Shown here in pieces: positions 1 through 3,512 of a stretch of DNA of 58,932 bases. Within the stretch, counting starts at the first letter, position 1. Every line of letters starts with the position of its first letter. The stretch covers positions 1-58,932 of the forward strand of contig JAKLDS010000009.1 in NCBI GenBank assembly GCA_022703375.1, in the 5' to 3' direction. The stretch is from Deltaproteobacteria bacterium. GTDB lineage: Bacteria > Desulfobacterota > Syntrophia > Syntrophales > Smithellaceae. The notes under the pieces were generated by a model. The model searched no databases and had not been told where the DNA came from. It saw nothing but the letters and a program-made list of their open reading frames with translations. Position numbers and translations under genes: made by a program.

Positions 1-273
1 TACGACGATACTTTTTTCTTGCCTGAGTTAACGAACTGCATCATAGGCTCACCGTTTTCTTTTCTCAAAAAGGTTGTTCGATACTAACCAGACAAAACGG
101 ATATTTGTCAACATCGTTTTTACTTATATTCGGGATTGGTCTTTATTACCACGAAATGCCGGCGGCAAAAATACAAGTGCGTTGAATTTATACATATTTT
201 TCTTTTCATTTGTTTTTAAAGAGAGTATAAAAACAACAAAATATCGCGAAAAGCCCATCGGGTATATTAATTG
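1..273. other. Left edge, no supported gene
   Basis: I find no convincing gene here. A 77-codon frame from 74 runs across the first cassette boundary, has no ribosome binding site and no recognisable protein, so I do not call it. A minus-strand frame begins at base 44 and runs off the window after about 14 codons; it cannot be judged and does not look like the start of an integron integrase. The stretch is AT-rich. Its right end merges into GTTATGA (273-279), the right-hand core of the recombination site in front of cassette 1, so this segment should be either the attI region or the tail of an earlier cassette. Confidence 0.4.
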
Positions 274-287
274 TTATGAGATAAATA

Positions 288-839
288 ATGATGATCACAA
301 GAATTAAAATCTGCTTCTTATTTTTAATCATATATTTCTCGCTGCCTTATGCATTCGCTGAAGATAATAATGTCTTTCCGCAAAACAACGGCACTTGCGT
401 TAACGATTTTGCGAAACTCATCAATCCAGAAGATACAGAGAAAATAAAATCTATGTGTGATGAAATCAGAAAAGATGAATTAGCCGTGATTGTGGTTGCA
501 ACTATTGATTCAATACCAAAAGTCAAAAAAGAATATGAGAGCGCACTCGCTTACGGTACTGATTTATTTAATTACTGGAAAATTGGGAGAAAGGGTGTTG
601 ATGATGGCATTTTGATTCTAGTCACCAAGAATGATAGAAAAACCGCAATATGTACTGGTTATCTTACAGAGCATTTCTTGCCAGATTGGCAAGCTGGAAG
701 GATATTAGATAAATACATGATACCTAATTTTAAAAAAGGAGATTATGGCAAAGGTATCATTGCTGGCATTATCGAGGCAAGAAAGATCATGGAGAAAAAC
801 AGAAAATTCATGTATCCGGAAAAATATGGGAATAATTAA
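288..839 (+). CDS. TPM-domain secreted protein (cassette 1)
   Basis: The 183-residue product begins with a clear signal peptide, with a hydrophobic core at about 8-19 and a likely cut after Ala24, followed by a TPM (DUF477, YgcG-like) domain over roughly residues 35-170. Typical features are FAKLINPED near the start of the domain, a YGTDLFNYWKIG segment and DDGILILV, the acidic pair of the family. TPM proteins are periplasmic or membrane-facing; the plant member TLP18.3 has acid phosphatase activity, but the bacterial role is not settled. Most relatives carry a C-terminal membrane anchor that is missing here, so this would be a soluble exported form. The gene starts only 14 nt inside cassette 1, as cassette genes usually do, with a weak ribosome binding site (GAGATAA). 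Confidence 0.8.
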   Translation: MMITRIKICFLFLIIYFSLPYAFAEDNNVFPQNNGTCVNDFAKLINPEDTEKIKSMCDEIRKDELAVIVVATIDSIPKVKKEYESALAYGTDLFNYWKIGRKGVDDGILILVTKNDRKTAICTGYLTEHFLPDWQAGRILDKYMIPNFKKGDYGKGIIAGIIEARKIMEKNRKFMYPEKYGNN

Positions 840-870
840 GTTGCGAGATTTTTTAGTTCATATATAAATC

Positions 871-934
871 TCATAACAATCAATACAGCCGATCGCAGCC
901 CTCTGGGCTGCTCCGGCTTAGCTTTTCGTTATGA
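871..934 (+). repeat. attC site 1
   Basis: Left core TCATAAC (871-877) and right core GTTATGA (928-934) are exact reverse complements. Between them lies an imperfect palindrome with CAGCCGATCGC on one arm and GCTCCGGCTTAGC on the other, and the hairpin AGCCCTCTGGGCT in the middle. This is the architecture of an integron attC site of about 60 bp. Recombination would occur between G928 and T929. The start codon of the following gene lies inside the right core. Confidence 0.85.
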
Positions 935-1152
935 ATGATAAGATCAAAATAATAATTGCTATAGGCCTTATTATAGTCGGTATTATCGGACTTTGTATTC
1001 ATATTAATGAATATAGAAAAGACCATCATGAGGCATTGAAAAATGAATTTCTTAATTTTATTTTTGACTTTCCATTTGCGGGGTTCATTTTTCCATTGGG
1101 ATTGATAGTTATAGGAATTGGTTGGTTATATTATTTACTGTGTAATATGTAA
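931..1152 (+). CDS. Small two-helix membrane protein (cassette 2)
   Basis: The 73-residue product has one hydrophobic segment at about 5-25 and a second at about 48-71, separated by a charged stretch (NEYRKDHHEALKNEF), so it should sit in the inner membrane with both ends on the same side. I recognise no family. The only usable ATG is at 931, within the right core of attC site 1, so there is no room for a normal ribosome binding site inside the cassette. Translation would depend on sequence from the preceding cassette or on coupling. It fills nearly the whole cassette (929-1215). Confidence 0.6.
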   Translation: MNDKIKIIIAIGLIIVGIIGLCIHINEYRKDHHEALKNEFLNFIFDFPFAGFIFPLGLIVIGIGWLYYLLCNM

Positions 1153-1169
1153 TATATTGAATAGTAAAT

Positions 1170-1221
1170 TCATAACCTGTCGCTAAAACCGATCGCGGCG
1201 CCAGGCGCCGCTCCGTTAGAG
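1170..1221 (+). repeat. attC site 2 (shortened)
   Basis: Left core TCATAAC (1170-1176) matches the start of cassette 2 exactly; right core GTTAGAG (1215-1221). The middle holds CCGATCGCGGCGCC and its pairing arm GGCGCCGCTCCG. The TTAGCTTTTC stretch present before the right core in sites 1 and 3 is absent, so the site is about 10 bp shorter and may recombine less well. Confidence 0.75.
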
Positions 1222-1240
1222 GTACAAGGATAGTCGTGTA

Positions 1241-1978
1241 ATGAAAGATACTGAAAAACTGTCATTTCTAGCGATGATTGAGAACCGTCATGAAATGATA
1301 ATGGATTTCTTGGCGACCTACTCAGAGATAACTGTTGTATTTGACTCAATAATATTGACCGTTCATTTAATAGCTTATGAGGCAACGATGGAGCACGGTT
1401 CAAAGAATTTGACTAAAACCCACATGGGTCTTATGTGGCAAACTGCTGTGAATTACTATAAGCAAGCTCTAGAGCATATACTGGCAAGAGAATTGGATGC
1501 TGGTTTTGCTCTTCTCAGAATGGCCACTGAATTAGCGAGAGATGCATATGCAATAGGGAAAGACGAGAGCCGTCTTGATCTGTGGATGCACAGAGAAGAA
1601 CGCGCTGAAGAATACAGAAGGGCTTTTAAGTTTGATAAAAGCAACCCAGCCGGAGAAATTGCTTTTCGTATTTACAAAATCACTTCACGCTATGGAGTTC
1701 ATGGCCATATGACATCTCTCCTACACGCCAAGAAAGGTCAAAAGACAGAAGATGCAAAGGGAGTGCTCCTAAGTACAGATGAAAAAATAATATTTACGGG
1801 TTTACAGATATGGCTTCGCGCTTTCTTTCCAATTCATGCACTTTTTTGTGATTCGTTTCAATTAAACAAGGCGCCAGTAAGCTCGTACAAGTCATTTATG
1901 GAATTGGTTACCTCCTTAGGTCCAATAATTGATGGCGTCGATAAGCATGTCGGTACGAAGCCAAAGGTGCTACATTAA
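1241..1978 (+). CDS. Hypothetical protein (cassette 3)
   Basis: A 245-residue soluble, mostly helical protein that I cannot assign. It has no signal peptide or membrane segment. The region around residues 68-110 contains an AVNYYKQALEHILARELDAGFALLRMATELARDA-like helical stretch, and the C-terminal half has conserved-looking aromatic and histidine positions (YGVHGHMTSLLH). This layout is reminiscent of uncharacterised helical proteins found in integron cassettes and near abortive-infection genes, but I have no motif to prove a function. The start at ATG 1241 is preceded by AGGTACAAGGATAG, which offers a plausible ribosome binding site. The gene occupies almost all of cassette 3. Confidence 0.65.
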   Translation: MKDTEKLSFLAMIENRHEMIMDFLATYSEITVVFDSIILTVHLIAYEATMEHGSKNLTKTHMGLMWQTAVNYYKQALEHILARELDAGFALLRMATELARDAYAIGKDESRLDLWMHREERAEEYRRAFKFDKSNPAGEIAFRIYKITSRYGVHGHMTSLLHAKKGQKTEDAKGVLLSTDEKIIFTGLQIWLRAFFPIHALFCDSFQLNKAPVSSYKSFMELVTSLGPIIDGVDKHVGTKPKVLH

Positions 1979-1982
1979 TACG

Positions 1983-2044
1983 TTCTAACGATGTCGCCAA
2001 AGCCGATCGCCACTACGCGACTCCGGTTTAGCTTTTCGTTAGCA
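1983..2044 (+). repeat. attC site 3
   Basis: Left core TTCTAAC (1983-1989) pairs with the cassette 3 start GTTAGAG with one mismatch; right core GTTAGCA (2038-2044). The inner arms CCGATCGC and GCGACTCCGG plus TTTAGCTTTTC resemble site 1 closely. Confidence 0.8.
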
Positions 2045-2068
2045 TTAAAATACAACAAAGAATATGTG

Positions 2069-2097
2069 TTGCCATAATGCACACATTGTGCTAATAT
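2069..2097 (+). promoter_or_regulatory. Cassette-borne promoter and operator of the toxin-antitoxin pair
   Basis: TTGCCA (2069-2074), a 17-nt spacer and TAATAT (2092-2097) make a good sigma-70-type promoter. The spacer contains the palindrome GCACACATTGTGC (2079-2091), the natural place for an autorepressing antitoxin to bind. Transcription would start near 2104, only about 3 nt before ATG 2107, so the toxin mRNA would be almost leaderless. A private promoter is typical of toxin-antitoxin cassettes, which must be expressed at any position in the array. Confidence 0.65.
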
Positions 2098-2106
2098 ATT
2101 TAGTAT

Positions 2107-2385
2107 ATGAAAAGTATTAATTGGAACACAGAGAAAAGTATTTTACTTAAGAAGTATAGGGGCATCTGTTTTGAAGATGTGGTTTTTTATATCGAAAGAG
2201 GTGACATCTTAGATGACTATTTACATCCCAACCAACGTGATTACCCTGGACAACGGATCATGGTTATTAGCATTGCAAATTACGCTTATCTTGTACCCTA
2301 TATTGAGAATGATGAAGAGTTATTTCTAAAGAACATCATCCCGAGCAGGAAAGCAACACAGAAATATTTTGGAGAAAAAACATGA
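2107..2385 (+). CDS. BrnT-like toxin (cassette 4)
   Basis: The 92-residue product resembles the BrnT/COG2929 group of small RNase toxins with a RelE-like fold. It starts with the family-like INWNTEKSILLKKY segment, continues with an FEDVVFYIERGDILDDY region and ends with the hallmark YIENDEELFLKNIIPSRKAT stretch carrying the basic catalytic-type residues. In this family the toxin comes first and the CopG-type antitoxin second, as here, and the two frames overlap by ATGA at 2382-2385. The expected role is mRNA cleavage and growth arrest unless neutralised by the next gene. I recognise the family from these motifs; activity is inferred. Confidence 0.8.
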   Translation: MKSINWNTEKSILLKKYRGICFEDVVFYIERGDILDDYLHPNQRDYPGQRIMVISIANYAYLVPYIENDEELFLKNIIPSRKATQKYFGEKT

Positions 2386-2660
2386 AAACTAAACTAACAA
2401 ATGAAGAAAAAGAAATTCTTGATAGCTTCGAGAAAGGTGAGTGGGTTCCCGTCAAAAACCTGCCAAAAAGGAAGAAGGAATTGATGGCCTATGCCCGTAA
2501 TACGTTGCGAAAAGACAAGAGGTTGAATATACGGATATCCGAAAGAGATCTTCTTGAACTTCAAAAAAAAGCGGTTATTGAAGGCTTACCCTACCAGACT
2601 TATGTTACCAGCATTATCCACAAATTCATTAATGGCGTTTTGGTCGAAGCGAGAAAATAA
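2382..2660 (+). CDS. CopG-family antitoxin (BrnA-like, cassette 4)
   Basis: The 92-residue partner begins with KLTNEEKEILDSFEKGEW, continues through ARNTLRKDKRLNIRIS and ends in a ribbon-helix-helix region with ISERDLLELQKKAVIEG and PYQTYVTSIIHKFING. This is the pattern of the CopG_antitoxin family (PF12441, COG5304), which pairs with BrnT-like toxins. The N-terminal half should wrap the toxin and the C-terminal ribbon-helix-helix should bind DNA, most likely the palindrome in the promoter spacer at 2079-2091. Its start overlaps the toxin stop, giving coupled translation. The gene stops 6 nt before the closing attC site, so the pair fills the cassette. Confidence 0.82.
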   Translation: MKTKLTNEEKEILDSFEKGEWVPVKNLPKRKKELMAYARNTLRKDKRLNIRISERDLLELQKKAVIEGLPYQTYVTSIIHKFINGVLVEARK

Positions 2661-2666
2661 AAAAAA

Positions 2667-2722
2667 TGCCAACCAGTCAATACAGCCGCTCGCTTACGCT
2701 CCGGGTGATTTTTTCTTTGGGC
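2667..2722 (+). repeat. attC site 4 (degraded right core)
   Basis: Left core TGCCAAC (2667-2673) fits the cassette 4 start GTTAGCA with one mismatch. The inner arms CAGCCGCTCGC and GCTCCGG match the other sites. The right core reads TTTGGGC (2716-2722) rather than GTTRRRY, so the terminal recombination point looks decayed. This is the last cassette before ordinary chromosomal genes. Confidence 0.65.
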
Positions 2723-2816
2723 ATACAATAAATTTCCGACACCTTTCTTATTCAGAGGATGGACAGTTGTTCGCGGCAGAAAGCAGGAGAGTAATAGAAG
2801 TGAAAGGGGCGTCCTG

Positions 2817-3512
2817 ATGGTATCAAACGATAATAACTTTTTAGGGGTGAGCCGTCGGGGATTTTTGGCTATCTCCACCGGTATTATTGCTGCCCTGTCG
2901 CTCGGCGGTACTTCACCTTTCGGGGTCAGCCAGGCAGCGGAGATTAGGTTTCCCGAAGGAAGATGTGGAGGCAACAAAAATATGGGGAAGAGAGTGTTGG
3001 TCACCTACGCCAGCAAATACGGCGCCACCGGGGGAGTTGCCGATGCTATTGGAAAGGAATTATGCGGCAAGGGTATGGCAGCGGACGTGGTCTTGGTAAA
3101 AAATGCCGGCAACATCAGTTCCTATCAGGGAGTCGTCATTGGCAGCGCTATCTATATGGGCAAGTGGTTGTCTGAAGCATTAGATTTTGTGAAAAAAAAC
3201 CAAGACATCCTGCGTCAGTTGCCTGTCGCCTATTTTCTTGTCTGTATGACCCTGGCCCGTCCCTCGGAAAAGAACATGACCGAAGTGTTGTCGTATATGG
3301 ATCCTGTACTTAAGTCCGTACCTGAGATAAAACCTGTTGGCATCGGGACCTTTGCCGGGGCGCTGGATTACAACAACCTTTCCTGGCTGAACAAAAAGAT
3401 TCTGAAGTCCAAAGGATCTCCGGAAGGAGATTTCCGTGACTGGAACGCCATTCGCACCTGGGCGCGGGAGCAGGTGTATGAAAAATTCGCCCATTATGAA
3501 TTCAAAAAATGA
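2817..3512 (+). CDS. Tat-exported flavodoxin-like protein
   Basis: The 231-residue product starts with a twin-arginine leader (SRRGFL at residues 12-17, hydrophobic stretch to about 35, Ala-rich cut region near 40) and then a flavodoxin fold beginning at about residue 58 (KRVLVTYASKYGATGG, the phosphate-binding FMN loop). The relatives I recognise are HemG-like/flavodoxin-domain proteins annotated as protoporphyrinogen oxidase-like. A Tat leader means it is exported already folded with FMN, to act in the periplasm or at the outer face of the membrane, which is unusual because flavodoxins are normally cytoplasmic. Partner and substrate are unknown. GGGGCG precedes the ATG. Confidence 0.75.
   Translation: MVSNDNNFLGVSRRGFLAISTGIIAALSLGGTSPFGVSQAAEIRFPEGRCGGNKNMGKRVLVTYASKYGATGGVADAIGKELCGKGMAADVVLVKNAGNISSYQGVVIGSAIYMGKWLSEALDFVKKNQDILRQLPVAYFLVCMTLARPSEKNMTEVLSYMDPVLKSVPEIKPVGIGTFAGALDYNNLSWLNKKILKSKGSPEGDFRDWNAIRTWAREQVYEKFAHYEFKK

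Follow-up and report, generated by a model that had tools for sequence, protein, structure and literature searches.

Integrons are usually described as having one attI that adjoins one intI. The cassettes of CALINs end in attC sites, lack an adjacent intI, and are thought to arise by integron decay and to be movable in trans (PMC9024848). Usually no attI is recognised in a CALIN; IntegronFinder, the sites being poorly described outside class 1, detects attI in that class only (PMC9024848), and CALINs are therefore not normally scored for it. In Xanthomonas, as reported in the accessible part of the source, many lineages have lost intI but kept their cassettes, and further CALINs lie at conserved chromosomal loci (PMC12444791). 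Cassettes placed away from intI are also found at attG sites, which are described as diverging strongly from attI (cited in PMC12444791 and PMC12901181). In the delta-attI cassettes of class 1 and 2 integrons, attI sequence off its usual place takes the form of attI pieces that replace attC at the cassette end inside mobile integrons (PMC12901181).

The window analysed here is the whole of contig C110 (58,932 nucleotides), part of a 2.57-Mb, 95%-complete Smithellaceae assembly. With four attC and no intI it falls within the definition of a CALIN (at least two attC without an adjacent intI), and its cassettes, kept without intI at one of several dispersed loci, recall those of Xanthomonas as far as the accessible text describes them (PMC12444791). 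Unlike a CALIN, the locus keeps an attI, here termed attI-B (52 bits), which has several copies per genome. In the accessible part of the Xanthomonas report, by contrast, CALINs are given by attC alone, with no dispersed multicopy attI (PMC12444791). The window site is a whole attI with repeated words, unlike attG as described there, and is not a piece at a cassette end, as in delta-attI. As no IntI-B coding was found in window 1–112, we read positions 113–2722 as an integrase-less integron that has kept the attI of the double-SAM IntI-B class together with four cassettes (rough probability 0.85). Such an integron would be a new variant beside known CALINs and intI loss; a search of open-access literature yielded neither a paper that connects Smithella with integrons nor a description of a multicopy orphan attI.

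Table 1 Features at the left end of the window (positions from the first base of the contig).
Feature	Coordinates	Strand	Evidence
Expected place of first ~37 intI-B codons	1..112	-	No intI-B coding found; start would be ~115
Putative orphan attI-B	113..273	+	R2 52 bits; found next to full intI-B in relatives; G|TT crossover follows 273
Cassette 1	274..928	+	G|TT junctions both sides; start versus own R'' complement 8/8
ORF, 183 aa, N-terminal hydrophobic stretch, TPM domain	288..839	+	Pfam PF04536 E 1.3e-33
attC1	870..935	+	R1 33.1 bits; bottom-strand fold z -5.3
Cassette 2	929..1215	+	G|TT junctions; pairing 8/8
ORF, 73 aa, small membrane protein	931..1152	+	ORF; no family above cut-off
attC2, right arm shortened ~12 bp	1169..1221	+	Direct reading and alignment
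Cassette 3	1216..2038	+	G|TT junctions; pairing 6/8
ORF, 245 aa, unknown protein	1241..1978	+	No family match
attC3	1983..2044	+	R1 17.3 bits; 81%/57 bp match to C38 attC
Cassette 4	2039..2717	+	Left G|TT junction; pairing 7/8; right junction degenerate
ORF, 92 aa, BrnT-like toxin	2107..2385	+	Pfam PF04365 E 0.003, below cut-off
ORF, 92 aa, CopG-like antitoxin	2382..2660	+	Pfam PF12441 E 6e-4, below cut-off
attC4, terminal, degenerate R'	2666..2722	+	R1 13.4 bits; ~90%/48 bp match to L222 attC
Flavodoxin-domain gene, chromosomal flank at array end	2817..3512	+	Pfam PF12724 E 8e-28

Bases 274–2717 comprise four mobile gene cassettes in a row, each ended by its own attC. The original prediction had placed an integron cassette array at 274–2722, right almost to the base, and its rule that each left core complements the start of its own cassette is borne out by the pairing of each start with its own R'' box (Table 1). 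The G preceding each cassette start lies at 273, 928, 1215 and 2038, and the R'' boxes at 870, 1169, 1982 and 2666. Outside the fixed GTT, 17 of 20 positions match (p = 3e-8 against random bases; p = 0.0013 once the RYYYAAC/GTTRRRY consensus is granted). Common to the four sites, with core sites at the ends, is the attC core CCGATCGC...GCTCCGG, exact or slightly varied, the variant in attC4 being CCGCTCGC.

The sites were scored with a covariance model (R1) built from seven attC adjoining integron integrases in relatives, the own genome being excluded to avoid circularity. With every window position scored, attC1, attC3 and attC4 take ranks 1–3: attC1 (871–934) reaches 33.1 bits (E 9.9e-6), and attC3 (1983–2044; 17.3 bits, E 0.05 in the window) and attC4 (2668–2722; 13.4 bits, E 0.45) are each weak alone. 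Further support for attC4 comes from a 48-bp stretch that matches, at ~90%, an attC lying downstream of attI-B in L222, and attC3 is 81% matched over 57 bp to an attC on contig C38. Missed by R1 in the window scan because its right arm is ~12 bp short, attC2 was placed by direct reading and alignment, so that three of the four predicted sites are recovered by an independent model. Folding of the bottom strand gives z -5.3 for attC1, moderate values for attC2 and attC3 and no support for attC4, and Rfam at its gathering threshold returned no attC match in the window. Elsewhere in the own genome, R1 detects further attC on contigs C4, C38 and C88. The refutation test proposed with the original prediction (no attC hit, no intI, and the same units as ordinary genes in relatives) was run in an equivalent form and left it standing. 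In attC2, the ~12 bp absent between the L' and R' boxes (window 1205–1221) may have cost cassettes 2 and 3 their separability.

A TPM protein, a small membrane protein, an unknown protein and a BrnT/CopG-like pair make up a mix typical of sedentary arrays. The cargo had been predicted in similar terms, with the last pair called toxin-antitoxin, and the TPM domain is firmly matched (E 1.3e-33), with the BrnT and CopG matches falling below the Pfam cut-off. No relative of the 245-aa protein was found among 148 other genomes of the order, and no copy of the window cassettes was found elsewhere. The flavodoxin-domain gene has orthologues in G003, G004, G021 and G053, and no matching empty site was found upstream of it at these four loci. 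Far to the right, window 34988–35054 matches the Rfam int-alpA RNA (46 bits), which may point to a further mobile element in the window.

To the left of cassette 1, ~40 bp recur in the own contigs C38, C81 and C61, where each copy precedes a gene or array ending in an attC-like site. The core pattern of this leader (at most 3 mismatches) is present in 12 of 59 genomes, the reversed pattern, used as control, giving 0 matches in the 59. When the copies are aligned, up to ~160 bp are in common, ending at TATATTAATTG|TT and diverging beyond. The element is conserved in different genera, and this conservation ends precisely at G|TT, where the first cassette is joined: information content is mostly 1.4–2.0 bits per base at -10 to -1 and mostly <0.4 from +3. 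The element also carries repeated ACCCATTGGG words. In G031 the leader element adjoins an integron integrase that is 52% identical to that of contig C96 and has an additional domain at its N-terminus; in this long class, IntI-B, Pfam detects two SAM-like stretches. Among closely related long integrases with upstream sequence, attI-B is located ~160 bp from the start codon. More distant ones have the same TATATTAATTG|TT end with more divergent sequence upstream, and at one of them (L158) no clear attI-B copy was found.

Judged by sequence, window ~113–273 is the predicted attI of the long integrase class, and the array starts there. A model made from 18 attI-B, none from the own genome (R2), matches the window at 195–275 (52 bits, E 1.9e-13) and finds four further own-genome copies at E≤1e-6. 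The conserved site beside intI, ending at G|TT, is known from relatives, the window copy itself being without intI. The prediction of a cassette array without integrase in the window holds in this respect and had overlooked the attI at the left edge. The crossover word in attI-B varies between sites (CCCATTGGG, CCAAGTTGG, CCAACTTGG ...), and related copies of it recur close to where intI starts and again ~115 bp upstream of the crossover; these words look like integrase-binding repeats whose specificity may have drifted. A second orphan attI-B array of the own genome (L111 1311–5263, contig C38) holds a first ORF without assigned identity, followed by two toxin-antitoxin-like cassettes. At L212, L229, L232, L250 and L256, a GC-rich hairpin unit (TACGGCCGCGCTGCGCGC... 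or TAGGCCGCCGCGCTG...) takes the place of GTTRRRY just after attI-B. Over 65 bp it is identical between two genomes; it may be a capping element or a cassette without an ORF.

Across the relatives attI-B is multicopy, with 134 copies in 36 of 59 genomes (R2, E≤1e-6) and up to 8 in each. Forty-one of these are in nine genomes without an integron integrase match; G001 (100% complete, 30 contigs) is one of the nine, as is G015 (98%, 10 contigs). Integron integrases occur in 36 of the 59 genomes, so that integrons are not rare here, contrary to the suggestion that such arrays are little known in syntrophic Desulfobacterota. The attI regions of several genomes of the same family are the same sequence as Smithella/Smithellaceae contigs; outside the family, a phylum-wide sample of 148 genomes gave one R2 match above 25 bits (37 bits). 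Neighbourhoods were analysed for 60 attI-B sites, taking up to 2 kb upstream. Around them, 69 of 71 attC matches are downstream and on the same strand (expected 31%; binomial p 1e-32), and an attC is present within 3 kb at 43 sites. At 16 of these 43, the bases after the crossover pair 7/7 with the first detected attC, and first-cassette pairing averages 4.88, against 3.81 on shuffling, where the highest value in 2000 rounds was 4.44. Upstream, 13 of the 60 sites have an open frame of IntI-B or a remnant of one; at 47, no IntI-B was found within the upstream sequence taken (up to 2 kb).

Syntenic loci in relatives indicate how such orphan sites may have formed. At locus S1, an intI-B separates attI from the upstream chromosomal flank in G016, and in G007, G015 and G001 the same flank abuts attI, with no intI and with inserts of ~0.54, ~0.81 and ~1.73 kb, respectively, before the common downstream flank. 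This comparison shows in-place intI loss directly in relatives. S2 is empty in G020 and in G007 has one cassette ending in attC at G|TT, neither genome having intI there; at S3, different inserts lie between conserved flanks in G016, G002 and G026, none with intI. In addition, a cassette of an IntI-A array (L020) shares 89% identity over 887 bp with one at an orphan site of G019. Together, S1–S3 and this common cassette favour continued cassette movement, either in trans or before repeated intI losses. Another candidate insertion, L228, was rejected and left out of the count because it is a toxin-antitoxin segment between duplicated flanks.

The best-surviving alternative, to which we give a little less than an even chance, is that the sites are pure fossils, each orphan attI being an independently decayed integron whose cassettes have been static since intI loss. 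It competes solely with capture in trans and leaves the anatomy untouched. Partial IntI-B coding persisting upstream at some sites, the 41 copies in nine genomes without integrase and the proposal that CALINs are degraded integrons (PMC9024848) are what such fossils would leave; they sit less well with S1 and S3, where both flanks are conserved and the inserts differ by species with no intI in the orphans, with S2, one copy empty and one filled without intI, and with the cassette common to an orphan attI-B and an IntI-A array. In the integrase-less integron that we favour, cassettes would have been captured singly by recombination at G|TT and intI-B lost, as at S1; for the window locus we infer this loss, because no relative with the window's own insertion site was found. 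The attI-cassette unit would have been kept, perhaps since the attI region supplies transcription. The cassettes may still be moved in trans by an integrase located elsewhere, either a passing IntI-B or the IntI-A of C96, and capture in trans at orphan attI-B is plausible, if unproven.

Unlikely, at a distance behind the fossil reading, is a complete IntI-B integron with its intI a short way to the left of base 1. Between the usual intI-B start and the contig end there are only ~112 bp, the assembly is 95% complete, and a displaced or broken intI-B could sit just outside the contig. An IntI-B HMM, however, gives 0.1 bits for the best frame of window 1–290, against 28.6–42.9 bits for the positive control of real 30–38-aa IntI-B N-termini, each left out in turn, and window 1–112 was rejected as an intI-B start on this score. 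No intI-B was found anywhere in the 95%-complete assembly and no IntI-B N-terminal fragment on any contig, and the other own-genome attI-B copies that have 1.1–1.4 kb of upstream sequence also lack intI-B. An intI-B adjoining the attI, as in a complete integron, was found neither in window 1–112 nor elsewhere in the assembly.

It is very improbable that the cassettes were inserted at a non-attI genomic site (attG) with a dispersed promoter as leader. The leader is indeed dispersed and promoter-like in look, and insertion at attG is published for other bacteria (PMC12444791, PMC12901181), but in relatives it adjoins intI-B at near-constant spacing and its ~160 bp of conservation up to the crossover extend far beyond the attG consensus. 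A plain promoter or attG as leader was rejected once that spacing was found.

The single integron integrase of the genome lies on contig C96 (431.6 bits, cut-off 265). The predicted lack of a visible integrase is correct for the window; the genome does have an intI. It is of the shorter class (IntI-A), with a different attI (AATAAGTGGAAAA repeats, TTTTCCACTTATTAATCTG|TT), behind which lie one cassette and the first part of another. The least probable alternative, that the window is the distal end of this integron, split from its intI by an assembly break, draws on C96 ending inside its second cassette in a fitting orientation and on similar attC sites, but the window array has an attI of its own at its start, and the two contigs were rejected as one split array because the integrase class and the attI differ. 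Cassette 2 of C96 matches one in Syntrophaceae UBA5764 at 126/126 bp, the identity beginning exactly at G|TT, and cassette exchange therefore occurs in the group. This common cassette (L039 rc 1665–3340; L009 1–120) has a nucleoside-phosphorylase-like ORF; its UBA5764 copy also has a further ORF that may resemble lincosamide nucleotidyltransferases of integrons. On contig C4 (L098, 906–3298 and 4044–4172), an IS91-family transposase and a XerC-like recombinase gene are apparently packaged as a cassette, with G|TTGAAC at the start and an attC end with R'' GTTCAAC (7/7 match). The same attC and element start recur where the contig ends, a repetition that may account for the break in the assembly.

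A conserved attI present without intI at several loci per genome, with species-specific cassettes at a given locus, would give a route by which CALINs arise. It would also make attI a search target, current tools scoring attC and intI only, and cassette capture in trans at attI would become directly testable. The attI-B alignment, with its site-varying repeated words, is useful for how IntI recognises attI. Tentatively, and with somewhat less confidence than an even chance, we suggest that integron integrases in Smithellaceae serve many dispersed attI in trans as a multi-dock integron, the window being one platform. If so, the loading and exchange of cassettes at several such platforms on the chromosome would be the work of one or a few integrases, sometimes none of them resident.
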